This document shows, in pieces, positions 18,175-31,970 of a stretch of DNA of 64,000 nucleotides. Position numbers and translations under genes: made by a program. The DNA lies in NCBI RefSeq assembly GCF_900119495.1, contig NZ_LT632435.1, positions 1,126,781 through 1,190,780 on the forward strand, written 5' to 3'. The DNA comes from Arcanobacterium urinimassiliense (GTDB lineage Bacteria > Actinomycetota > Actinomycetes > Actinomycetales > Actinomycetaceae). Position 1 is the first letter of the stretch; every line of letters starts with the position of its first letter. The notes under the pieces were generated by a model. It made no database searches, had not been told where the DNA came from, and saw nothing but the letters and a program-made list of their open reading frames with translations.

Positions 18175-18672
18175 GTGAAAAAAATTGGCATCGTAATGGG
18201 GTCAGATTCTGACCTCCCAGTTATCGAAAAAGCAATCAAATATTTGCAGGAAGTAGGTGCCGATTTTACAGTCAATGTATATTCCGCACATCGCACTCCT
18301 GATGAAGCAATAGCTTTCGCGCGCAATGCAAAAAATAATGGCTACGGGGTACTTATTGGTGCGGCAGGTATGGCCGCCCATCTCGCCGGCGTCCTCGCTG
18401 CCAATACCACCCTGCCGGTGATTGGCATTCCCTGTAAAGCAAAAGCTCTGGAAGGAATGGACGCTCTCTTGGCCACGGTAATGATGCCTCCAGGAATACC
18501 GGTGGCCACGGTAGGCATAGACGGCGCCAAAAATGCCGCTATTCTCGCTTGTGAAATTATTGCTCTTACCGATCCGGATTTAGCGGCGCGTTTAGAAGAA
18601 CAACGCCACGCCAATACGCAGGCGATTTTAGAAAAAAACGCCCAGATTAACGCCGAGTATTCCTCTCACTGA
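18175..18672 (+). CDS. purE: 5-(carboxyamino)imidazole ribonucleotide mutase
   Basis: 165 residues. PurE moves the carboxylate of N5-CAIR to give CAIR in de novo purine synthesis. GSDSDLPV and SAHRTPDE near the N-terminus, [14 protein letters not shown], and [15 protein letters not shown] are the substrate loops. GTG 18175 has GGAGG four bases upstream. PurE of this class normally needs PurK for its substrate; purK is not in the window. First gene of the purine operon, directly behind the structured leader. Confidence 0.96.
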
Positions 18673-18766: not shown

Positions 18767-19456
18767 ATGGAAAAGAAGCTCGTCTATAAAGGAAAGACCA
18801 AAGATCTCTTTGCTCTTCCGAATGGCAATTTCGAGCTGAAATTCAAGGACGACGTGACCGGAAAAGACGGTAAGTTCGATCCCGGGGAAAATCAGGTAGG
18901 GCTTTCCATCGCGGGGGTGGGAGATATTAACCTCAAGATGACCACCTACTTCTTCGAAATTTTAAAAGAAAAAGGCATCAAGACGCACTGGGTAGCTTCC
19001 GATATGGAAAACACCACCATGGAAGTACTCCCCTGTACCGTATTTGGTAAAGGGCTGGAAGTGATTTGCCGCTATAAAGCAGTCGGCTCTTTCTATCGGC
19101 GCTACGGCGAATACTGTGAACTGGGGCAGGATCTTCCCGCTTATGTGGAAATGACCTTTAAGAATGACGAAAAGGGAGATCCGCTAGTCACCAAAGACGC
19201 CCTCGTAGATTTAGGGGTAATGAGCGGTGAACAGTACGATGCCACTAAAGCAGCTACGCAGGAAATTACGGCCGTAGTAGCAGAAGAAATGACTAAGCGC
19301 GGCCTAGAACTCTACGATATTAAGTTCGAATTCGGCTACGATGCGGAGGGCGAAGTAATCCTGATTGATGAAATTGCCTCCGGAAATATGCGCGTATATC
19401 GCGACGGCGAGTATGTGGAACCACTAGAGCTAAATAAGCTCTTCTTCAATTTATAA
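18767..19456 (+). CDS. purC: SAICAR synthetase (short form)
   Basis: 229 residues, nearer to the compact Firmicutes form than to the roughly 300-residue form common in actinobacteria. It ligates aspartate to CAIR using [15 protein letters not shown] opens the ATP-binding lobe; [17 protein letters not shown] and [24 protein letters not shown] are family motifs. A clear AAAGGAG precedes the ATG. Short length and neighbours suggest an origin outside the actinobacteria. A GC-rich 140-base spacer with alternative hairpins separates it from purF. Confidence 0.95.
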
Positions 19457-19464
19457 AATTGCCT

Positions 19465-19517
19465 GCGGGAGGCCGGCACAGCTAGAGAGCGCGCGACCTC
19501 CCGCTCGCCAGCGCGCT
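19465..19517 (+). promoter_or_regulatory. overlapping alternative hairpins between purC and purF
   Basis: GCGGGAGG (19465-19472) can pair with CCTCCCGC (19497-19504), while AGCGCGC (19488-19494) can pair with GCGCGCT (19511-19517). The two stems cannot form together. No T-run follows, so this is not an obvious terminator; it could affect mRNA processing or stability between the two genes. Confidence 0.4.
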
Positions 19518-19596
19518 TCTAAATAGAGCCGCCTGCCAAACCAAATATCGGAAATCTGCACGCATATGCGCAAAGATACAAACTGAAAGAATAGCT

Positions 19597-21195
19597 GTGG
19601 GTGGATTTTTTGCACTGACCTCTCGCCGGCAAATTAGCGAAGACATTTTTTTCGGCACTGATTACCATAGCCACTTAGGCAACTACCGCGCTGGGCTAGC
19701 TCTCTGGGATAAAGAGCTCGGTTTCCAACGGGAAATTCACAGCATTCAAAAAGATTCTTTCCGTTCCCGTTTCTCCGATTTTCTTTCTGAAGCACGCGGT
19801 ACTGCTGGCATTGGCTGTATTGCTGACGACGCCCCTTCGCCCCTCATTATTTCTTCTCACCTTGGGGTATACGCTATTTGTTTCGTCGGAGTAGTCAATA
19901 ACCTCTGTGAACTGCGCGATGAGCTTCTGAATAGTAAAAGCATTCATTTTAATGCTCAAAGTGCAGCGCGCATCAACCCAACTGAGCTCATAGCAGCACT
20001 TATAAATACGCAGACAGATTTCGCCGCCGGAATAAAGTATGCCCAAGAACGTATTATTGGTACCTGTAATTTGGTGCTAATGCAGGAAGATGGCACCCTA
20101 ATCGCCGCCCGCGATCGCTTGGGGCGGTTGCCGATAATTATTGGTAAAGACGAAGATGGCTATGCCCTCTCGGTGGAGTCTTTTGCTTTTGAAAAACTCA
20201 GTTACACCTACTGTTATGAACTGGGGCCGGCGGAAATTGTAGAGATTCACCCTAGAGAAATTCGCCAATTAGCTCCTCCGGGCAACGAAATGAAGATGTG
20301 CGCCTTTATGTGGAATTACTACGGCTACCCCACCTCTACTTATGAAGGGGTAAATGTGGAAATCATGCGCAATCGGAACGGCGAGATCATGGCAGCTAAT
20401 GAAAAAGATCCAGCCTTTTTCCAAAAACTCGATTACGTATGCGGCGTCCCAGATTCCGGTACTCCCCATGCGCTCGGCTACTCTTTTGCCAGCGGGGTAA
20501 AATTTGCGCGCTGCTACATTAAGTACACCCCCACTTGGTCGCGTTCTTTTATGCCGCATCTGCAGGGTTCCCGCAATCGCATAGCAAAGATGAAACAGGT
20601 GCCGGTAAAAGAACTAATTGATGGAAAAGATATTCTTTTTGTAGATGACTCGATAGTGCGCGGCACGCAGCTGCGAGAAACGGTAGAGTTCTTAAAAGCT
20701 AATGGTGCGAAAGAAGTGCATATGCGCTCCGCCTGCCCGCCGATGATGTACTCTTGCCCGTTCTTAAATTTCTCTTCTTCTACTTCCCAGATGGAGCTAA
20801 TTACTCGGCGCATCATTATGGAATGTGAAGGCGAAGCCGGCTTTTCCCATATTGATGAATACGCCGATACTCATACGGAGCGTGGGCAAAAACTGCGAAA
20901 AATTCTGGCGGAGCGTTTCAATTTTGCCACCCTCGAGTTTCAGTCTCTAGAGGGCATTATTAAAGCAATCGGCATAGATCGCAGTAAACTCTGCACCTAC
21001 TGTTGGAGTGGCAATAAAGCCGATTTTGGAAGTAGCTATAAAGCAAATCCCGCAATAACGAACCCAGAGCAGCCAGCGCAATCCGAAAATCCAACGCAAC
21101 CAACCAATCCGGAGCAATCATCACAAAAAGAAAATTCCGGCATTGACCCTTGCCTTAAGCAAAACTCACAGCCCAACCCAGACCTAAAAAATTAA
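19597..21195 (+). CDS. purF: amidophosphoribosyltransferase, Cys-less N-terminus
   Basis: 532 residues. The phosphoribosyltransferase domain carries the PRPP motif ILFVDDSIVRGTQLRE, and CPPMMYSCPFLN with CTYCWSG near residue 466 could hold an iron-sulfur cluster. The N-terminal Ntn-glutaminase fold is present (TDYHSHLGNYRAGLA, GTAGIGCI), but the protein begins MGGFF instead of M-C-G, so the nucleophilic Cys is missing; no upstream in-frame codon supplies one. From memory this fits a PurF subgroup seen in Clostridia. It may use ammonia or another glutaminase. The last 50 residues are Pro/Gln/Asn/Ser-rich. GTG start with a weak binding site. Confidence 0.9.
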   Translation: MGGFFALTSRRQISEDIFFGTDYHSHLGNYRAGLALWDKELGFQREIHSIQKDSFRSRFSDFLSEARGTAGIGCIADDAPSPLIISSHLGVYAICFVGVVNNLCELRDELLNSKSIHFNAQSAARINPTELIAALINTQTDFAAGIKYAQERIIGTCNLVLMQEDGTLIAARDRLGRLPIIIGKDEDGYALSVESFAFEKLSYTYCYELGPAEIVEIHPREIRQLAPPGNEMKMCAFMWNYYGYPTSTYEGVNVEIMRNRNGEIMAANEKDPAFFQKLDYVCGVPDSGTPHALGYSFASGVKFARCYIKYTPTWSRSFMPHLQGSRNRIAKMKQVPVKELIDGKDILFVDDSIVRGTQLRETVEFLKANGAKEVHMRSACPPMMYSCPFLNFSSSTSQMELITRRIIMECEGEAGFSHIDEYADTHTERGQKLRKILAERFNFATLEFQSLEGIIKAIGIDRSKLCTYCWSGNKADFGSSYKANPAITNPEQPAQSENPTQPTNPEQSSQKENSGIDPCLKQNSQPNPDLKN

Positions 21196-21228: not shown

Positions 21229-22275
21229 ATGCGTGATTCTCAGTCACAGAGCTACAAAGAGGCCGGCGTTGATATTGAAGCAGGCTACGAAGCAGTAGAA
21301 CGAATCAAGAAGCACATTAAGACTACCCTGCCCGGAGGGATGTCTTTTGACAGCACTGGTTTCGGCGGCATGCTTCCCTTGGCCGTAGCGGGAATGCGCC
21401 AACCTTATATTATTTCCGCGACTGACGGAGTGGGGACGAAACTGAAGCTTGCTTTTTTAATGGATAAGCACGATACGGTAGGTATTGATTGTGTGGCAAT
21501 GTGCGTAAATGATGTACTCTGCGCCGGCGCACTTCCCATCAATTTTCTCGACTATATCGCTTGTGGTAAGAATTTTCCGGAAAAAATAGAAGCTATTGTA
21601 CAGGGAGTAAGCGAGGGATGCCGGCAAGCGAATATTCCACTCGTAGGCGGGGAAACTGCTGAGATGCCGGGCTTCTACCCAGAAGACGAATATGATTTAG
21701 CCGGATTTTGCAACGGCATAGTAGATTTACCAGACGTATTAGATAAAAATACGGTAAATAGCGGCGATGTACTGATCGGCATTGCCAGCTCTGGGGTGCA
21801 TTCCAACGGTTTTTCTCTGGTGCGGAAAATTTTCGATATCACTACCCGCACTGGGCTCGAACAGCATTTTCCCGAGTTAGGAGAGCTAAATCTCGGTGAA
21901 GTACTACTAGAGCCCACAAAAATTTATGTGCAAGCAGTTGGGGCGCTTCTCCAGTGCAAGCTAGTGAAATCCCTAGCTCATATCACGGGCGGCGGTTTCT
22001 ATGAAAATATCCCTCGCTCCCTGCCGAGTGGCCACGGAGTCGTGATAGATAAGAGCGCTTGGGAAATACTGCCAATTTTCCGGCTAATTCAGCGTATTGG
22101 CAATATCTCCGCACACGATATGTTTAACACTTTCAATATGGGAATCGGAATGACGGCCATAGTTGCTCCCGAAAATGCCGATACGGTAATAGAGATTTTG
22201 GCGGAGCACGGAGAAAAAGCCTTTAAAATCGGTCAAGTAGTGAAATCTTCCCAGCTAATAACTTTTACGGAGTAG
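21229..22275 (+). CDS. purM: phosphoribosylformylglycinamidine cyclo-ligase (AIR synthetase)
   Basis: 348 residues, the usual length. PurM closes the imidazole ring of FGAM with ATP. SFDSTGFGG, SATDGVGTKLKLA, and GGETAEMPGFY are diagnostic, with MCVNDVLCAGALPINFLDYIA in the ATP-binding core and GGGFYENIPR in the C-terminal half. ATG 21229 has GGAAAGAAA upstream. It lies 33 bases after purF. Confidence 0.97.
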   Translation: MRDSQSQSYKEAGVDIEAGYEAVERIKKHIKTTLPGGMSFDSTGFGGMLPLAVAGMRQPYIISATDGVGTKLKLAFLMDKHDTVGIDCVAMCVNDVLCAGALPINFLDYIACGKNFPEKIEAIVQGVSEGCRQANIPLVGGETAEMPGFYPEDEYDLAGFCNGIVDLPDVLDKNTVNSGDVLIGIASSGVHSNGFSLVRKIFDITTRTGLEQHFPELGELNLGEVLLEPTKIYVQAVGALLQCKLVKSLAHITGGGFYENIPRSLPSGHGVVIDKSAWEILPIFRLIQRIGNISAHDMFNTFNMGIGMTAIVAPENADTVIEILAEHGEKAFKIGQVVKSSQLITFTE

Positions 22276-22334: not shown

Positions 22335-23057
22335 ATGGAAGTAACGAGCGAGCGGCAGGAAACGAAGAAAAAAGCGCGCGTAGCGGTGCTTATTTCCGGC
22401 GGCGGCACCAATCTGCAAGCCATCATAGATGGCGTAGAATCTGGCGCGCTTCCCCATGTAGAGATAGCTCTAGTGGTGAGCAATAAGGCAACAGCCTACG
22501 GTCTAAAACGCGCCCAAGCAGCTGGAATTCCTAGCGCCGTAATAGCCAGCCCCACATATAGCACCAAAGCAAGCCAGGAAGCTGCTCTGCTCCAGATTCT
22601 GCGCGCGCAAAATATCGATCTAGTAGCACTGGCCGGATTTTTATCTATCCTCAGCGCCGATTTTATCGCCCACTGCCCCGCCCCGATTGTAAATATCCAC
22701 CCCTCCCTTATACCCGCTTTTTCTGGCCCTGGATTTTACGGCCGGCGAGTGCACGAAGCCGCCCTGGCAGCAGGGGTGAAAGTATCGGGCGCTACCGTAC
22801 ACCTGGTAAATGAAGTTTGCGACGGCGGGCAGATTCTCGCGCAAGAAACGGTGCGCGTACAGGAATCTGATACTCCCGATACCTTACAGCAAAGAATCCT
22901 CCACGAAGTCGAACACGTAATTTTTCCGCGCGTTATCGAGCAACTCAGTAAAGAGATTACTGGCCAAAGTTCGCCTCATTTCTTAGCGCCTAGCACCTCC
23001 ACGTCTAGCTCTTCTTCCTCCAGCACTTCTAGTCCTTCCAGTTCCTCCCCGAATTAA
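22335..23057 (+). CDS. purN: phosphoribosylglycinamide formyltransferase
   Basis: 240 residues. PurN transfers formyl from 10-formyl-THF to GAR. The catalytic NIHPSLIPAF (Asn and His) and GATVHLVNEVCDGGQIL (Asp in the DGG position) are intact. The GFYGRRVHEAAL segment resembles clostridial PurN. After about residue 210 the protein ends in a 28-residue tail made almost only of Ser, Thr and Pro, not needed for the fold. The formyl donor is probably supplied by fhs at the end of the operon. Confidence 0.95.
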   Translation: MEVTSERQETKKKARVAVLISGGGTNLQAIIDGVESGALPHVEIALVVSNKATAYGLKRAQAAGIPSAVIASPTYSTKASQEAALLQILRAQNIDLVALAGFLSILSADFIAHCPAPIVNIHPSLIPAFSGPGFYGRRVHEAALAAGVKVSGATVHLVNEVCDGGQILAQETVRVQESDTPDTLQQRILHEVEHVIFPRVIEQLSKEITGQSSPHFLAPSTSTSSSSSSSTSSPSSSSPN

Positions 23058-23112: not shown

Positions 23113-23811
23113 ATGGCTCTGCAGCAACTTACGGAATATCTTGGCGCAAAATCTTATCCCGGGCGCACCTTGGCAATAGCCAGCGATCCGACCGGCAGCA
23201 GCGCCACAATTATTTACTTCATTATGGGGCGCTCTGCCAATAGTCAGAACCGTATTTTTGTGCAAGAGGGAGAGAGCGTGGCTACGCAGGCTTTCGATGA
23301 ATCGAAAGTCGAAGATCCACGGCTAATTATCTATCCGGTCTATAAACGCTACGGAAATACTCATATCGTCACCAATGGTGATCAGACTGCTACTATCTAC
23401 CAGGCTCTTCATTCTGGTATTGCCCCTGCCGAGGCCTTATTGCAGCGCGAATGTGAACCAGATGCACCTAATTTTACTCCCCGTATTTCTTTAACTACTG
23501 ACCCCCAGGGATACGGATTAAATATCATTAAGGCTGCCACCAAAGCTGGGGAAAAATCCTTACATTTCGATTATCGTTTTCCCTATTTGCCTGGTCTTGG
23601 CCACTGTATCCACACATATATCGACGACGGCAATCCCCTGCCGAGCTTTTGCGGCGAACCAATCGCTTTCCCGTATACCGCTGACTTAGGAGAAAAAGTT
23701 TGGAAAGCCATTAATCCGAATTATCGAATATCGCTTCTGGAATGTGTATTAGACCTGCACACTTGGGAAATGCAAAGTATACGAATTTTTAACCGCCACA
23801 CTGGAGATTAA
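23113..23811 (+). CDS. purO: IMP cyclohydrolase, PurO-like
   Basis: 232 residues. YPGRTLAIASDPTG, then FIMGRSANSQNRIF, and RISLTTDP match the IMP cyclohydrolase-like family related to archaeal PurO. It closes FAICAR to IMP, the last step of the pathway. Most actinobacteria use the N-terminal domain of bifunctional PurH instead. The downstream AICAR formyltransferase lacks that domain, so this gene fills the missing step. ATG has AAGAAAGAAAG upstream. Confidence 0.85.
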   Translation: MALQQLTEYLGAKSYPGRTLAIASDPTGSSATIIYFIMGRSANSQNRIFVQEGESVATQAFDESKVEDPRLIIYPVYKRYGNTHIVTNGDQTATIYQALHSGIAPAEALLQRECEPDAPNFTPRISLTTDPQGYGLNIIKAATKAGEKSLHFDYRFPYLPGLGHCIHTYIDDGNPLPSFCGEPIAFPYTADLGEKVWKAINPNYRISLLECVLDLHTWEMQSIRIFNRHTGD

Positions 23812-23871
23812 TACTTTCTCCTCCCGGTAACCTCGCTAAAAAATTGCCAATAGAAAAGAGAAGTTAAGAAT

Positions 23872-25056
23872 ATGAAGTCTTTAGCTCTGAAATATGGAAA
23901 TAACCCCCATCAACAGCCCGCCTATATCGATATGCCAGATGGCAATGATTTACCTTTAGCGGTACGCAACGGGCGGCCGGGTTATATTAATCTATTAGAT
24001 GCGCTAAATTCCTGGCAACTGGTGCGCGAGCTGCGCACCGCCACCGGGCAAGCCTGCGCCGCTTCTTTTAAACACGTTTCTCCTACTTCCGCCGCGGTAG
24101 GCAAGCCGCTTTCTCCAGAGTTGAAAAAGGCAGTTTTTGTAGATGATATAGCTGGTTTAGATGATTCTCCGCTCGCTTGTGCCTATGCACGGGCCCGCGG
24201 CACCGACCGGCTCTGCTCTTTCGGGGATTTTATTGCACTTTCAGATATTTGCGATGTAACTACTGCGCAACTAATTCGCCGAGAAGTTTCCGATGGCGTG
24301 ATTGCCCCTGGCTATGATCCAGCCGCTTTAGAAATTTTACGCGCGAAACGCGGGGGAAATTATACTGTCTTAGAAATTGACCCCGCTTATACCCCGGACG
24401 CAGAAGAAATAAAGACGGTATTTGGAATTCATTTCCATCAAGGGCGGAATGACCGGCAGATTGACGAATCTTTATTACAAGAGATAGTGACGAAAAATAA
24501 AAATTTGCCTCCGCAAGCCCGCTTAGATTTGATTATTGGCCTAATTACTTTGAAATATACTCAATCTAATTCAGTATGTTTTTCCTATGATGGGCAAGCC
24601 ATTGGTGTGGGAGCCGGCCAGCAGTCTCGTATCCACTGCACTCGCTTAGCGGCTGGGAAAGCTGATACGTGGTTTCTCCGCCAGCATCCGCTGGTACTTG
24701 CCTTACCATTCCGCGCTGAACTCCACCGCGCCGAACGCGATAATCTGATTGACGGCTATATTAACCAGAACGAAGAAGATGTATGCGCTGAAGGCACGTG
24801 GCAACGGTATTTCACGAGCCGCCCCACCCCGCTGAGTGCGGAGATGAAGGCAGAATACCTGGAAAAAATTACCGGCGTGAGCCTCACTTCGGATGCTTTT
24901 TTCCCTTTTTCCGACAATATCAAGCGCGCAGCCAAAAGCGGCGTATCTTATGTAGCGCAACCGGGCGGCTCGATTCGAGACGATGCGGTAATTGCTGAAT
25001 GTGATGAGCACGGAATAGTAATGGTCTTTAACCATCTACGGCTTTTCCATCACTGA
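23872..25056 (+). CDS. purH: stand-alone AICAR formyltransferase
   Basis: 394 residues, corresponding only to the AICAR transformylase domain of PurH. LKYGNNPHQQPA opens the domain; AASFKHVSPTSAAVG holds the catalytic Lys-His pair, and the C-terminus has DAFFPFSDNIKRAAKSGVSYVAQPGGSIRDD and HGIVMVFNHLRLFHH. The IMP cyclohydrolase domain normally fused in front is absent and replaced by the PurO-like gene upstream. It uses 10-formyl-THF. Confidence 0.92.
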   Translation: MKSLALKYGNNPHQQPAYIDMPDGNDLPLAVRNGRPGYINLLDALNSWQLVRELRTATGQACAASFKHVSPTSAAVGKPLSPELKKAVFVDDIAGLDDSPLACAYARARGTDRLCSFGDFIALSDICDVTTAQLIRREVSDGVIAPGYDPAALEILRAKRGGNYTVLEIDPAYTPDAEEIKTVFGIHFHQGRNDRQIDESLLQEIVTKNKNLPPQARLDLIIGLITLKYTQSNSVCFSYDGQAIGVGAGQQSRIHCTRLAAGKADTWFLRQHPLVLALPFRAELHRAERDNLIDGYINQNEEDVCAEGTWQRYFTSRPTPLSAEMKAEYLEKITGVSLTSDAFFPFSDNIKRAAKSGVSYVAQPGGSIRDDAVIAECDEHGIVMVFNHLRLFHH

Positions 25057-25103: not shown

Positions 25104-26381
25104 ATGAAACTGAGCATTATTGGCAGCGGCGGGCGGGAATATGCAATCGCCCAAAAACTTTTAGCAGATAATCCCCAGCTGGAGTTGCACATATTGCCCG
25201 GAAATGCCGCAATGGAAGATTTTGCCTATATCCATCCGGAAATTACTGCAGAAGACATCACTGGGGTGCGCGAATTTTGCCAGAAAGAAAAAATTGATTT
25301 CTGCGTGGTCACCCCCGATAACCCGCTAGTGCTCGGTATGGTAGATGCTCTCGAAGAAGTGGGAATTCCCTGCTTTGGGCCTCGCCGTGCCGGAGCGATG
25401 CTGGAAGGCTCCAAGAGCTTCGCTAAAGAGTTTATGATGCGCCACGGCATTCCTACTGCTAAATATCAACATTTTACCGATTTTTCGGCCGCCTTAGAGT
25501 ATGCCCGTAATTCCAGTTATCCTTTGGTGATTAAGGCTGATGGGCTAGCACTCGGCAAAGGTGTAGCTATTCCAGATAGTTTCACTGCCGCAGAAGAAGT
25601 ACTGCGCGATTTCATGCTCGGGCAGAAATTTGGGGAATCGTCGCGGCAAGTGGTGATTGAAGAATATCTGACGGGGCCCGAAATTTCGGTACTCAGTTTC
25701 TGTGACGGTAAAACAATTAAACCCTTGGTATCTTCTATGGATCACAAGCGGATTTATGACGGCGATAAAGGGCCGAATACTGGCGGTATGGGAGTAATTG
25801 CCCCTAATCCCGTATTTAGCACTGCGGTGGCGCAAGAATTTCAAGAAAAAATCATGCTCCCTACTCTGGCCGGATTGCAGGCAGAGCATATCGATTTCCG
25901 GGGGTGTCTCTATTTTGGGCTAATGCTCACCGCTTCCGGGTTAAAAGTAATTGAGTATAATGCGCGCTTCGGCGATCCAGAAACGCAGGTAGTACTCCCC
26001 TTACTCCGCGGAAATCTCTTGGAAATTTTCCAGGCTGTGGCTCGGGGAGAACTCGAAAAAGTAAAAGTAGAATCCACCGCCCAGCATGCCGCCTGCGTAG
26101 TAATGGCGGCGGCGGGCTACCCGGGGCCGGTAGAAAAAGGGCAAGAAATTACCTATCCTCCAGAAATACTCCCCTATCTAGTATTTGCCGGAGTAAAGCG
26201 CAGCGCAGCCGGCACCCTGTTAAGTAACGGCGGGCGCGTAATTAACGTATTAGGATACGGCGATTCTCTAACAGCAGCACTGAATAAAGCCTATGAAAAT
26301 GTAGAAAAAGTAAAGTTCGGCTCATGCCAGTTCCGCCGGGATATTGGCAAACGGGCTCTAGAGATTGAGGCAGGAAAATGA
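25104..26381 (+). CDS. purD: phosphoribosylamine-glycine ligase
   Basis: 425 residues, ATP-grasp fold. PurD joins glycine to phosphoribosylamine. GSGGREYAIAQKL opens the N-terminal domain; DGLALGKGVAI and EEYLTGPEISVLSFCDG lie in the ATP-grasp region, and EYNARFGDPETQVVLP is the Mg/ATP site. Its stop overlaps the purL start (ATGA), so the two are translationally coupled. Confidence 0.97.
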   Translation: MKLSIIGSGGREYAIAQKLLADNPQLELHILPGNAAMEDFAYIHPEITAEDITGVREFCQKEKIDFCVVTPDNPLVLGMVDALEEVGIPCFGPRRAGAMLEGSKSFAKEFMMRHGIPTAKYQHFTDFSAALEYARNSSYPLVIKADGLALGKGVAIPDSFTAAEEVLRDFMLGQKFGESSRQVVIEEYLTGPEISVLSFCDGKTIKPLVSSMDHKRIYDGDKGPNTGGMGVIAPNPVFSTAVAQEFQEKIMLPTLAGLQAEHIDFRGCLYFGLMLTASGLKVIEYNARFGDPETQVVLPLLRGNLLEIFQAVARGELEKVKVESTAQHAACVVMAAAGYPGPVEKGQEITYPPEILPYLVFAGVKRSAAGTLLSNGGRVINVLGYGDSLTAALNKAYENVEKVKFGSCQFRRDIGKRALEIEAGK

Positions 26382-29300
26382 TTTACCGAATTTATGTAGA
26401 AGCAAAAGCAGAAACTAATCCGGCAGCCGCCTCTTTAGCTGGCGAACTGCGAGAATTCTTAGGAATTCACAATTTAGTGGGTCTGCGCATTATTAATCGC
26501 TACGATGTGGAGGGAGTGAGCAGCAAAGTATTCCAATCCGCAGTTACTAATGTATTTGCCCAGCCCCCACTCGATAATTACTTTAGTGAATTAAAGATTC
26601 CCGCTAATACTACCGCTTTCGCTGTCAGCTATCTGCCGGGGCAGTACGATCAGCGGGCAGATTCAGCTGCGATTTGTATTCAGATGCTGGCACAGGTAGA
26701 TAAACCGCTCGTCAATTATGCCTGCATATATCTGCTGGAAGGTGAGCTCACTAACGCCGAAATTGCCGAAATTAAAAAATATTTAATCAATCCGGTAGAT
26801 TCCCAAGAAGTGGGATTGGAGATGCCGGAGAGCCTAGAGCTGCGCACTACTCCCCCCGCTCCTGTACCTATTATTGACGGCTTTACCTCTTATGATACGG
26901 AGCGTTTAGAAAAATACTTAGCAGATAATTCTTGCGCGATGGATTTAGCAGATTTGCAGCTAGTGCAGAGCTATTTCCAATCGGTGCAGCGCGATCCGAG
27001 CGAAACCGAATTAAAAGTAATTGACACCTATTGGTCTGACCATTGCCGGCATACTACCTTTAATACTGCCCTGCGCCAGGTAGAAATTGCAGATGCCCGC
27101 GTACAAGCCACCTACGATTCTTATCTGAAGATTAAGGAAGAAATTAACCCTGACCGCCCCGTCACTCTTATGAGTATGGCGACTATGGCGATGAAGCAAT
27201 TGCGGCGGGAAGGGAAATTGGAGCAGCTGGATATTTCGGAAGAAATTAATGCTTGCACTATAAAAGTAGCGGTAGATGTAGACGGGAAAAACGAAGATTG
27301 GCTACTCCTTTTCAAAAACGAAACTCATAATCACCCCACTGAAATTGAGCCTTTTGGCGGTGCGGCTACCTGTATTGGTGGAGCAATTCGCGATCCACTT
27401 TCCGGGCGTTCTTACGTATATGCGGCTATGCGCGTCACAGGCGCAGCTGATCCGCTCACAAGCCGAGAAGATACTCTGCCTGGAAAATTACCGCAGCGGA
27501 AAATCGTAACTACCGCTGCCGATGGTTACTCATCTTATGGTAATCAAATAGGTTTGGCTACTTCATTTATTGATGAAGTATATGACCCCTCTTATGCCGC
27601 AAAGCGCCTGGAAATCGGGGCAGTTTTAGGAGCGGTACGGCAAGCAGATATTAAACGCGAGACTCCCATTCCGGGCGATATCGTAGTCCTAGTAGGCGGA
27701 GCTACTGGCCGGGATGGCATCGGCGGAGCTACTGGCTCTTCGCGAGCACATAATTTAGATTCCGTATCGGAATGTGGAGCACAGGTGCAAAAAGGTAATG
27801 CTCCAGAAGAGCGAAAATTGCAGCGACTTTTCCGCCGGCCAGAAGTGACGCGCTTCGTAAAGAAATGTAATGATTTCGGTGCGGGCGGCGTCTGTGTAGC
27901 GGTAGGAGAATTAGCTGCGGGTCTCGATATCCATTTAGATGCGGTTTATAAGAAATATGAGGGACTGAATGCTACCGAAATTGCGGTGAGCGAATCTCAA
28001 GAACGCATGGCGCTAGTAATCGCCAAAAAAGATTTAGCGGAGTTGGCCAAATACTGCGCAGAAGAAAATCTACGCTATGCAGTGGTGGCCGATGTGACGG
28101 CAGCACCAGTACTAAGAATGAGCTATCAGGGGCAAGAAGTGGTGAATATTGAGCGCTCTTTCCTCGATACAAATGGCGCTCCGAAGCAGATAGATGTGAA
28201 AGTAGCCGAGCCGAAAGCAGCTACGCGGGCGGAAGCAAATACCGCAGAAATATCTGCTCATGCGGATTGGCGCAGCCGCTTAGCCGATATGCTTACCGAT
28301 TTGAATCACTGCGCGAAAGAAGGCCTAATTCAGCAATTTGATTCCACTATTGGAGCCGGCACCGTGCTCATGCCTTTAGGAGGAAAGCTACAAAAGACCC
28401 CTATTCAAGCTATGGTACATAAATTCCCGGTATTGGGAGCAGAAACCACTACTTGCTCCGTCATGGCTTATGGCTTCAATCCCACTATCAGTAAAGCTGA
28501 CCCCTACCGCGGCGCTTATGAAGCCGTAATAGATTCAGTAGCGAAAGTAGTAGCGGCAGGAGGAGATCCCGCGCAGGTACACTTAAGTTTTCAAGAGTAC
28601 TTCCCCTCTCTCCAAACAGATCCAGAGAAATGGGGTCTGCCTTTCGCTTCACTTATGGGGGCCTTTCAAGCCCAGCTAGATTTAGAGATGGCCGCAATCG
28701 GTGGCAAAGATTCCATGAGCGGCACTTTCGAAAATTTAGAAGTGATTCCTACTCTGGTATCTTTTGCCGTCACCTTAGCCCAACTTGATCAGGTGATTTC
28801 CCCGGAGCTGAAAGAAGCAGGCGGAAAATTACTAGTTGCTGCCCCGCGCAAAGGCACCAAACTTTCTAAGGCGTATTTCCTGAAAGTAGCTCAGCTGCTG
28901 GCGAGCGGAAAGATCCGGGCTGCCTACTCTTTGACTGGTTCTTCGATTCATGAAGCAGCTTTCAAAATGGCACTCGGAAACCAGCTAGGAGTTCAATTTA
29001 ACTCTGATTTTGCGCCAGAGACGGGGTTTGTCCCTATTTGTGGCGGCTTCCTGCTCGAGGCAGCGGCAGATTTTTCACCTCATCCAGCCGAAGAAGAATT
29101 AGTAGAGATACAAGAAATCGGAGAAGTAATTTCTCCGTATGAGTTACGGGCAGCTGGACAAAAAGTAGCTATTGCCGAGCTCCAAAAAGGCTATGAGGCC
29201 AAGTTGGAACCGGTCTATCACGTACATACTCCAGCTCCGGATGCGGGGTCTGGGGCTAATTCTTCATCGGCAGCAGACTCACTAGCAGACTCTCTAGCAC

Positions 29301-30178
29301 CGGTAAATTCCACCCCCGCGCTCCGGCCAGAGGTCAAAAGCTATCCGTGGATTAAAAACAACCTGCCCGCCCGCAAATATAGCGGTCAGCCGCACCCTAA
29401 TCCCCAAGTACTAATTCCGGTATTCCCTGGCACTAACTGTGAATTTGATACGGCACGGGCTTGGGAAAAGGCTGGGGCCAAAGCAGATATTATGGTCGTC
29501 AAGAGCCTTACAGTGGCGGATATTGAAAGAAGTATTAGCGAGTTTGCTGCTAAGTTGGCAGCAGCGCAGATTCTTTTCATTCCGGGTGGTTTCTCGGGCG
29601 GTGATGAACCAGATGGATCAGCTAAGTTCATTACTTCGTTTATGCGCAATGAACAGGTAGCAGAGGAAATTAACCAGTTGCTGGAAGAACGCGATGGGCT
29701 AATTGGTGGCATCTGCAACGGCTTTCAAGCTTTAATTAAATTAGGGCTACTCCCCACTGGGCGAATTTGTGAACCAAAAGTTGATATGCCTACTCTCACT
29801 TATAATACGATTGAGCGCCACCAATCGGGAATCGTCAATGTGCGTATCTGCAATACGAGCAGTCCGTGGCTGCAAAAAACTGAAATGGGCGCAATTTATC
29901 AAGTGCCCATATCGCATGGTGAAGGGCGAATCGTCGGAGAAGTAAAAGCGCAGAATATAGCCACCCAATATGTGGATTTAGCGGGCACTCCGACTTCTGA
30001 TATTCGATTCAATCCAAATGATTCACAGCTAGCTATCGAAGGAATGGTATCTGATTGTGGGCGTATTTTTGGAAAGATGGGGCACGCAGAACGTTTCTCC
30101 GCTGGCACCTATCAAAATGTACCCGGCCGTTATGATATGCAAATTTTTGCGGCGGCAGTGGATTACTTTCGTAGCTAA
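26378..30178 (+). CDS. purL: phosphoribosylformylglycinamidine synthase, single chain (PurS-L-Q type)
   Basis: 1266 residues. It converts FGAR to FGAM with ATP and glutamine. The central synthase domains show DTYWSDHCRHTTF, ETHNHPTEIEPFGGAATCIGGAIRD, and GGKDSMSG. The C-terminal amidotransferase (about 1007-1266) has PGTNCEFDTARA, the nucleophile C1113 in GGICNGFQAL and SHGEGRIVG. Actinobacteria usually encode separate PurS, PurQ and PurL; the fused form is seen in Clostridia, bifidobacteria and proteobacteria. A Ser/Ala-rich linker of about 30 residues precedes the amidotransferase. Confidence 0.97.
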   Translation: MIYRIYVEAKAETNPAAASLAGELREFLGIHNLVGLRIINRYDVEGVSSKVFQSAVTNVFAQPPLDNYFSELKIPANTTAFAVSYLPGQYDQRADSAAICIQMLAQVDKPLVNYACIYLLEGELTNAEIAEIKKYLINPVDSQEVGLEMPESLELRTTPPAPVPIIDGFTSYDTERLEKYLADNSCAMDLADLQLVQSYFQSVQRDPSETELKVIDTYWSDHCRHTTFNTALRQVEIADARVQATYDSYLKIKEEINPDRPVTLMSMATMAMKQLRREGKLEQLDISEEINACTIKVAVDVDGKNEDWLLLFKNETHNHPTEIEPFGGAATCIGGAIRDPLSGRSYVYAAMRVTGAADPLTSREDTLPGKLPQRKIVTTAADGYSSYGNQIGLATSFIDEVYDPSYAAKRLEIGAVLGAVRQADIKRETPIPGDIVVLVGGATGRDGIGGATGSSRAHNLDSVSECGAQVQKGNAPEERKLQRLFRRPEVTRFVKKCNDFGAGGVCVAVGELAAGLDIHLDAVYKKYEGLNATEIAVSESQERMALVIAKKDLAELAKYCAEENLRYAVVADVTAAPVLRMSYQGQEVVNIERSFLDTNGAPKQIDVKVAEPKAATRAEANTAEISAHADWRSRLADMLTDLNHCAKEGLIQQFDSTIGAGTVLMPLGGKLQKTPIQAMVHKFPVLGAETTTCSVMAYGFNPTISKADPYRGAYEAVIDSVAKVVAAGGDPAQVHLSFQEYFPSLQTDPEKWGLPFASLMGAFQAQLDLEMAAIGGKDSMSGTFENLEVIPTLVSFAVTLAQLDQVISPELKEAGGKLLVAAPRKGTKLSKAYFLKVAQLLASGKIRAAYSLTGSSIHEAAFKMALGNQLGVQFNSDFAPETGFVPICGGFLLEAAADFSPHPAEEELVEIQEIGEVISPYELRAAGQKVAIAELQKGYEAKLEPVYHVHTPAPDAGSGANSSSAADSLADSLAPVNSTPALRPEVKSYPWIKNNLPARKYSGQPHPNPQVLIPVFPGTNCEFDTARAWEKAGAKADIMVVKSLTVADIERSISEFAAKLAAAQILFIPGGFSGGDEPDGSAKFITSFMRNEQVAEEINQLLEERDGLIGGICNGFQALIKLGLLPTGRICEPKVDMPTLTYNTIERHQSGIVNVRICNTSSPWLQKTEMGAIYQVPISHGEGRIVGEVKAQNIATQYVDLAGTPTSDIRFNPNDSQLAIEGMVSDCGRIFGKMGHAERFSAGTYQNVPGRYDMQIFAAAVDYFRS

Positions 30179-30266: not shown

Positions 30267-31970
30267 GTGGCGCAACTATCCGATATTGAGATTGCCCAGC
30301 AATCCCAGCTTCGCCCTATTACAGAGATTGCCGCAAAACTGGGAATCGACGCAAAATACCTCGTACCCTATGGGCGTGCTAAAGCAAAGCTAGATTTACA
30401 GTTGATAAATGACGAGCAGATTACCCGTAATAAGCTTGTGCTGGTGACCGCGATGTCTCCTACTCCGGCCGGAGAAGGAAAAACTACCACCACAATTGGA
30501 CTAGCGGATGGTTTAGCGCACATCGGAAAACGAGTATGTGCAGCCTTACGTGAGCCTTCTTTGGGGCCAGTTTTCGGCTTGAAAGGCGGCGCCTGCGGAG
30601 GTGGCTATGCGCAGGTGCTTCCGATGGAAGATATAAATCTACATTTTACCGGCGATTTTCACGCTATTTCAGCAGCCAATAATCTACTAGCCGCCCTGCT
30701 AGATAACCATATCTACCAAGGAAATGAGCTCCGTATCGACCCTCAGCGCATCGTCTTGAAGCGCTGCCTCGATATGAACGACCGCCAATTGCGTAATATC
30801 GTAGATGGTCGGGGAAAGACCAGCGACGGGCGAGAACGCGAAGACGGCTTTGAAATTACTGTAGCTACCGAAGTGATGGCTATTTTTTGCTTAGCTTCTT
30901 CCTTAGCTGATCTAAAACGCCGGTTGGGGAAAATAATCGTCGCCTATAATGAAGACGGCAAACCGGTGACGGCCGCTGATTTACAGGCAGCTGGAGCCAT
31001 GACGGCCTTGCTTAGAGAAGCCTTATTACCGAATTTAGTGCAGAGTATAGAAGGGACGCCGGTGATTATGCACGGTGGACCTTTTGCTAATATCGCCCAC
31101 GGATGTAATTCAATTATTGCCACAAAAATGGCGCGTTCTCTCAGCTCTTACACAGTTACAGAAGCCGGTTTCGGGGCAGATTTAGGGGCCGAAAAATTTA
31201 TCGATATCAAGTGCCGCCTAAGTGGTATGCAGCCAGATTGCGCCGTAGTAGTGGGCACAATTCGCGCCTTAAAAATGCACGGCGGAGTAGATACGAAGGA
31301 TTTAGAGTATGAAAATTTGCCTGCCTTACAGGCGGGGCTGCCTAACTTACTGCGCCATATTTCCACTTTGCAGAATGTATTTAATCTGCCAGTTGTGGTG
31401 GCTTTAAACGTATTTCCCAGCGATACGGCGGCAGAAATAGCTTTGGCTAGCACCGAATGTGCAAAGCTTGGAGTGAAGCTAGTGAACTCTACGGTATGGG
31501 CAGATGGAGGAGCTGGCGGAGAGGAGCTAGCTCAGGAAGTGGTGCGCCTCTGCGAAGAAAATAAAGGAAACGAAACAGGCCGCAAAAATTTGGATCTGCT
31601 TCGCTTTGCTTATCCACTTGGAATGCCGATAGCCGAAAAACTTAATCTGCTAGTGCAGAACGTATACGGCGGTTCCGGAGTAGATATTGCTCCGGCAGCG
31701 CGGCGAGAAATTTCTCAGCTCACAGAGTTAGGCTTTGCAGATTTACCTATATGCATGGCGAAGACCCAATATAGCTTCTCAGATAATCCCCAGCTCCGTG
31801 GAGCTCCGCGTGATTTCCAGGTGCATGTGCGGCATATTAAAGTAAATGCGGGTGCTGGTTTCTTGGTGGCTTATTCGGGAAGCCTGCTAACTATGCCGGG
31901 GCTTCCGAAAGTACCAGCCGCAAATTCTATTGACGTAGCTGAAGATGGCCGTATTACGGGGCTTTCTTAG
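30267..31970 (+). CDS. fhs: formate-tetrahydrofolate ligase
   Basis: 567 residues. It makes 10-formyl-THF from formate, THF and ATP. The P-loop is [11 protein letters not shown] (64-74); [24 protein letters not shown] and [12 protein letters not shown] are typical. The GTG start at 30267 has TGGAGG about ten bases upstream. As the last gene of the purine operon it would feed both formyl-transfer steps (PurN and PurH). It is followed by a clear terminator. Confidence 0.96.

Follow-up and report, generated by a model that had tools for sequence, protein, structure and literature searches.

A PurF homologue without its glutamine site is the only PurF found in the genome of Arcanobacterium urinimassiliense

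We found that a PurF homologue lacking the N-terminal catalytic cysteine (Cys-less PurF) stands in place of ordinary PurF in 11 of 200 genomes of the Actinomycetaceae, the family of Arcanobacterium urinimassiliense, and this gene replacement is our main evidence. The loss of its glutaminase active site is wider than Cys1 alone and takes in Arg26, Asn101, Asp127 and eight loop residues. In the textbook enzyme, glutamine hydrolysis and phosphoribosylamine synthesis are coupled by a channel for ammonia. On sequence grounds, we think it fairly probable that the PurF of the window (the whole 64,000-nucleotide stretch of DNA that was analysed) forms 5-phosphoribosylamine from PRPP and ammonia, with no glutamine hydrolysis of its own.

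Gene start, fold and active-site residues

The window gene starts with GTG-GGT-GGA and its product with (M/V)GGFFALTS, leaving no Cys at position 1 or 2; the protein fails to show the catalytic Cys that marks PurF after removal of Met or of a propeptide. The open reading frame and the alignment of relatives confirm the preliminary description, which had noted a PurF that begins Met-Gly-Gly-Phe-Phe and has no N-terminal Cys. That description had also held the upstream frame to be free of Cys codons and of starts. Two in-frame Cys codons (19534 and 19567) in fact lie between the upstream in-frame stop at 19483 and the GTG, but no ATG, GTG or TTG precedes them in frame, and the upstream start supplying a Cys that would have spoken against the proposal was not found among ordinary start codons. 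The second Cys codon directly follows an ATA (ATA-TGC, 19564–19569); an ATA start exposing Cys is too rare to assume, and the relatives give it no backing. Four members of the family align from the same M-G-G as the window protein, as do 103 clostridial and other rows of the tree set, although for the latter the agreement is by construction, these rows having been picked by an M/V/L-GG-x-F start.

Against the NCBIfam purF model TIGR01134, the window protein scored 163.5 bits (E 1.1e-47; 154 bits in the genome search) and did not reach the curated cut-off of 350. A PDB search nevertheless returned PurF chains with E values down to 2.8e-37, and an AlphaFold2 model (pLDDT 82.4, pTM 0.81; 47-row alignment) matched whole PurF chains over both domains with Z scores of 35.8–38.2, the highest being for plant PurF 6lbp (VIA-align, 434 residues). 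PurF chains were the best full-length fold matches. The model also matched the isolated glutaminase domain of GlmS (Z 25.4 over 210 residues), but a PRTase domain follows the glutaminase domain, in place of the SIS or synthetase domain of GlmS or AsnB. From the matches to PurF chains and to the GlmS domain, we infer an intact Ntn fold whose active site is gone.

The PRTase half is preserved. The window protein and its relatives retain the PRPP motif and the PRTase domain, and DDSIVRGT, K326, R332 and F334 are present in nearly all of the 115 Cys-less rows described below. Nearly all of these rows also have the flexible loop KYTPTWxRSF, compared with KNxYVGRTF in ordinary PurF. Four cysteines (235, 387, 466 and 469) match conserved cysteines of the ordinary rows. 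By analogy with the Fe–S ligand positions of B. subtilis PurF and with PurF of Arabidopsis (PMC7953260, PMC7056826), they would hold a 4Fe–4S cluster. The window protein ends in a tail of about 55 residues (21025–21195) in which N, P, Q, S and E abound; the three family relatives aligned lack it, and its pLDDT in the model of the window protein is below 50.

The extent of the active-site loss was read from an alignment of 115 Cys-less rows (114 distinct sequences, with the window protein entered twice and some near-copies), 45 ordinary PurF rows and E. coli PurF, which provides the numbering. Because the Cys-less rows were picked by their M/V/L-GG-x-F start, their lack of Cys1 is by construction; their other losses are not. 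Nine ORFs fitting neither start pattern were left out, eight of them of the Cys-less type (including Met-Ala or Met-Ser-Gly starts and one truncated ORF) and one ordinary. All 115 rows have Leu for Arg26 and Val, Ile or Thr for Asn101, lack Arg73, Tyr74 and Thr76 through deletion, and retain Gly102; Asp127 is replaced in 114. By comparison, ordinary PurF rows keep Cys1, Arg26, Arg73, Tyr74, Thr76 and Asn101 in 45/45 cases and Asp127 in 44/45. Among the glutamine-site residues Arg73, Asn101/Gly102 and Asp127, the window protein has only Gly102, and it lacks the eight residues that begin the glutamine loop at Arg73 (E. coli 73–80). In PurF, Asn101 provides the oxyanion hole, and Asp127 is the residue to which the amino group of glutamine binds. 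One structural paper places the glutamine loop at R73–E84, where R73 and T76 make contact with DON, a glutamine analogue, and Y74 touches I335 in the flexible loop of the PRTase domain (PMC7953260). The earlier view that the rest of the glutaminase fold and the PRPP motif are kept therefore stands for the fold, by structure comparison, and for the motif, by alignment, but not for the residues that bind glutamine.

Judged by its conservation in sequence, the degenerate glutaminase domain is not in decay. In the Cys-less type, the entropy per column averages 1.26 bits for the glutaminase half and 0.90 for the PRTase half, compared with 1.46 and 1.15 bits in ordinary PurF, and motifs of the clade's own (D22-Y-H-S-H-L-G28, I47-H48 and R56) occur in 114 or 115 of the 115 rows. 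A cysteine, Cys74, stands at the site of E. coli His71 in 102 rows. Some divergent clostridial copies (L142, L143, L144, L145, L135 and L147) start Met/Leu/Val-Ser-Gly-Phe-Phe, with Ser rather than Gly after the initiator.

Table 1 Features of the purine gene cluster in the window and of its PurF homologue
Feature	Position	Strand	Basis or remark
purE	18175–18672	+	TIGR01162 above cut-off
purC, short form	18767–19456	+	TIGR00081 E 1.2e-30, below cut-off; Pfam SAICAR_synt
Cys-less PurF, PRPP aminotransferase (predicted) with degenerate glutaminase domain	19597–21195	+	532 aa, GTG start
Degenerate Ntn glutaminase domain, residues ~1–225	19597–20271	+	Without Cys1, Arg26, Asn101, Asp127 and the Arg73-loop start; clade motif D22-Y-H-S-H-L-G28
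Altered PRTase flexible loop KYTPTWSRSF (309–318), replacing KNRYVGRTF	20521–20550	+	Alignment; model pLDDT <50 at 312–318
PRPP-binding motif DDSIVRGT (350–357), kept	20644–20667	+	Alignment
purM	21229–22275	+	TIGR00878 above cut-off
purN	22335–23057	+	TIGR00639 above cut-off
IMP cyclohydrolase-like (PurO-like)	23113–23811	+	Pfam PF07826 E 2e-38
AICAR formyltransferase (PurH without cyclohydrolase domain)	23872–25056	+	NF005492 above cut-off
purD	25104–26381	+	TIGR00877 above cut-off
purL, single-chain FGAM synthase with its own glutaminase domain (GICNGFQ and SHGEG stretches)	26378–30178	+	TIGR01857 above cut-off
Formate–tetrahydrofolate ligase	30267–31970	+	NF010030 above cut-off

Replacement of ordinary PurF and the origin of the cluster

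A second complete PurF, which the preliminary description had named as evidence against its reading, was sought by profile across the window genome (98.22% complete, 2 contigs). The PurF and glutaminase (GATase_7) profiles each matched two places, the Cys-less purF and a second gene whose ORF starts MCGIVGYVG and is, judged by eye, GlmS-like over its whole length; these profiles detected no second PurF. The same pattern extends to the family. At E 1e-15, the Cys-less profile matched 178 of 200 family genomes and left 22 without a match. Eleven of the 200 carry the Cys-less type (>600 bits), each with a single match, so that none of the 11 carriers has another PurF match at this threshold, while matches with scores typical of ordinary PurF occur in 167 of the remaining 189 (classes assigned by score, among the matches listed). 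The two types exclude one another in the family with a Fisher p of 5e-10, a value that ignores kinship. When seven of the 11 carriers (the window genome and six others) were searched again with the purF profile, no ordinary PurF was found; three of these six are single-contig genomes (G033, G439 and G530).

Mutual exclusion holds in this family but fails as a general rule. In a clostridial family, 32 of 80 genomes are carriers of the Cys-less type; 13 of these have no other PurF match and 19 have both types (Fisher p 0.13 for exclusion). Thirty clostridial genomes, taken from 30 of the best 80 loci and mostly metagenome assemblies with no completeness given, divide into 13 with an ordinary PurF above cut-off and 17 without. 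All 20 carriers in a Bacillota sample of 299 genomes also exceed the ordinary-PurF cut-off; at least 95% completeness was requested for this sample and for the clostridial family. An Actinomycetota sample of 296 genomes contains 25 carriers including the window genome, and of the remaining 24, ordinary PurF is present in 21 and absent from three (G632, G689 and G896). Where both types occur, the Cys-less copy could have an accessory or a regulatory role. In five Actinomycetota genomes with both (L197–L201), which we read as Coriobacteriia-like, the Cys-less gene is remote from recognisable pur genes. The two types share a locus in 10 of 80 clostridial loci (L071, L080, L095, L097, L098, L099, L109, L111, L112 and L113), possibly as a pair of isozymes or as a hetero-complex.

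Cys-less PurF is a real clade that is abundant in Clostridia: at least 589 loci with relatives were detected, the best 80 of which are all Bacillota records, in agreement with the clostridial PurF subgroup with this start named in the preliminary description. The cluster in the window runs purE-purC-purF-purM-purN-purO-purH-purD-purL, followed by the formate–THF ligase gene (Table 1), and a purE to purL cluster surrounds the Cys-less purF in seven of the eight family carriers inspected, the window genome included. The purC of one carrier (G034) is only 31% alike to that of the window, and on a short contig of another (G526) only purE, purF, purM and purN were found. Among the 80 clostridial loci, 77 have at least one other pur gene beside the Cys-less purF and 38 have the set purE, M, N, O, H, D and L. 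In a same-genus relative with ordinary PurF (G009), the other pur genes of the window were not seen beside purF at the sensitivity of the search. Two further features of the window cluster are a low-complexity Ser/Thr-rich tail at the C terminus of PurN (22950–23057) and the division of the final two steps of IMP synthesis (23113–25056) between a PurO-like IMP cyclohydrolase and a PurH with formyltransferase only.

A quick tree placed the 11 family sequences in four places inside clostridial ones, with several forks below 95 support. On a 51-row subset, a test of one clade for seven of these sequences, a group chosen with the tree already in view, rejected it at p-AU 0.016. The clostridial cluster was probably transferred into the family more than once, each time with loss of the ordinary PurF, a claim drawn from the tree and the gene order only. 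The gene and its cluster would have come from Clostridia by horizontal transfer, displacing purine genes of the ordinary actinobacterial type. Base composition was considered as a sign of recent transfer and rejected, as the GC content of the cluster (0.483) does not contrast with that of its flanks (0.475 and 0.493).

Source of the amino group in the first purine step

With an intact PRTase half and a dead glutaminase half, ammonia-dependent synthesis is the simplest reading of the window protein, and since the glutamine site is lost from the only PurF found in the genome, purines are probably built from ammonia. The preliminary description had listed free ammonia, supply by another amidotransferase and a new role for the fold as its readings; the loss of the whole glutamine site and the sole-copy status together favour an enzyme that uses ammonia. 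Ammonia would enter the PRTase site from the surrounding solution, perhaps by way of the emptied glutamine pocket, which is without the eight loop-start residues that would close it. The glutaminase domain would remain as a scaffold to keep the PRTase loop in order, or would bind something new. According to one paper, PurF uses ambient NH3, and a figure legend there gives a proposal that outside NH3 enters by the glutamine site (PMC12017579). E. coli PurF engineered to carry Ala or Ser instead of Cys1 is described in another as having lost the use of glutamine while retaining that of ammonia (PMC3261824), which is the behaviour predicted here; unlike those single changes, the present case is a natural clade in which the whole site is lost.

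The window genome has no match to an ammonium transporter, so free ammonia would have to diffuse in or arise inside the cell. As a clue to the mechanism the transporter is uninformative, because the ordinary-PurF relatives tested also lack it; the single positive among 13 genomes tested was G530. Glutamine shortage is not supported as the cause of the loss of the glutamine site, since each of the 15 genomes tested, the window genome among them, has glutamine synthetase. The state of the glutaminase domain counts against the ammonia reading, as a pure relic might decay and this domain does not.

The main rival to free ammonia, although we judge it unlikely, is a partner protein: a separate glutaminase or amidotransferase would dock on the degenerate domain and pass ammonia to the PRTase site, leaving the step dependent on glutamine. 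The conserved D22-to-G28, I47-H48 and R56 positions could form the docking face, glutamine synthetase is available, and PurL of the same cluster has a glutaminase domain. However, the cluster holds no unassigned glutaminase gene, and a search of the window genome confined to GATase_7 glutaminases finds only the Cys-less purF and the GlmS-like gene. The presence of ordinary PurF in most carriers of the wide samples, together with the Cys-less copies that lie outside pur genes, would fit a regulatory paralogue or one with a different substrate, phosphoribosylamine then coming from elsewhere. We consider this improbable for the window protein, given that no other PurF was found in its genome or in those of the 10 other family carriers and that the rest of the pathway adjoins the gene in seven of the eight carriers inspected, including the window genome.

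Continued use of glutamine through another nucleophile, such as Cys74, or from a rare start codon that would expose a Cys, is more improbable again. The frequency of Cys74, the in-frame ATA-TGC and the Met-Ser-Gly starts of some relatives (L142 to L145 and others) speak for it, but the further loss of Arg73, Asn101 and, in nearly every row, Asp127 tells against it, and 13 of the 115 rows have no Cys74, including rows from genomes with no other PurF (L158/G530, L085/G077, L167/G594, L170/G590 and L171/G596); we therefore rejected Cys74 as a general replacement nucleophile. Errors in purF start sites are on record, at about 5% in archaea according to PMC3261824, and an ordinary PurF could in principle be disguised by faulty sequencing or start calling. 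The alignment refutes this, with the same losses in 114 distinct sequences and deletions deep within the reading frame, and we give it next to no weight.

Beyond the window protein, we put forward a wider reading more tentatively, as possible but not the likelier outcome. A widespread bacterial clade would depend obligately on ammonia in the first purine step, its dead domain having become a new conserved DYHSHLG site that gates ammonia, senses a ligand or docks a partner, and the clade would have spread across phyla and repeatedly displaced ordinary PurF.

Comparison with known enzymes and consequences

The window protein resembles PurF (EC 2.4.2.14; E. coli 1ECF/1ECC, B. subtilis 1AO0, A. 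thaliana 6LBP) in fold, PRPP motif, place in the pathway and positions of the Fe–S cysteines. It differs in lacking the N-terminal Cys, the Arg73 end of the glutamine loop, Asn101, Asp127 and Arg26, in the one extra residue of its flexible loop, in an additional stretch at about 411–440 and in falling below the TIGR01134 cut-off. Strictly defined, it falls outside the glutamine PRPP amidotransferases, and its mode of action is probably that of their PRTase half.

The nearest precedent is the crenarchaeal PurF′ of Brown et al. (2011), described there as lacking the N-terminal Cys, lying near purine genes and always occurring beside an ordinary PurF; its role as an ammonia-dependent PRPP aminotransferase is put forward by the authors as one possibility (PMC3261824). 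The window protein shares with PurF′ the missing Cys and the proximity to purine genes. Unlike PurF′, it occurs in a genome in which no ordinary PurF was found, many other genomes have only the Cys-less type, and the clade is bacterial; loss of the remaining glutamine site is documented for the bacterial clade, which was compared with PurF′ by description only. A literature search, with most subscription literature outside its scope, brought up no earlier description of such a Cys-less clade in bacteria.

If our reading is correct, a sole PurF with its glutamine half erased would mean that the coupling of glutamine to ammonia is dispensable for life, and the old question of whether free ammonia is a donor in vivo would become directly testable. 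It would provide a cleaner system for the PurF′ idea of Brown and colleagues, because no ordinary PurF masks the effect. The first purine step would be predicted to resist glutamine analogues. Nitrogen bookkeeping would change in models of many gut bacteria, in which the gene may be labelled as a glutamine amidotransferase.
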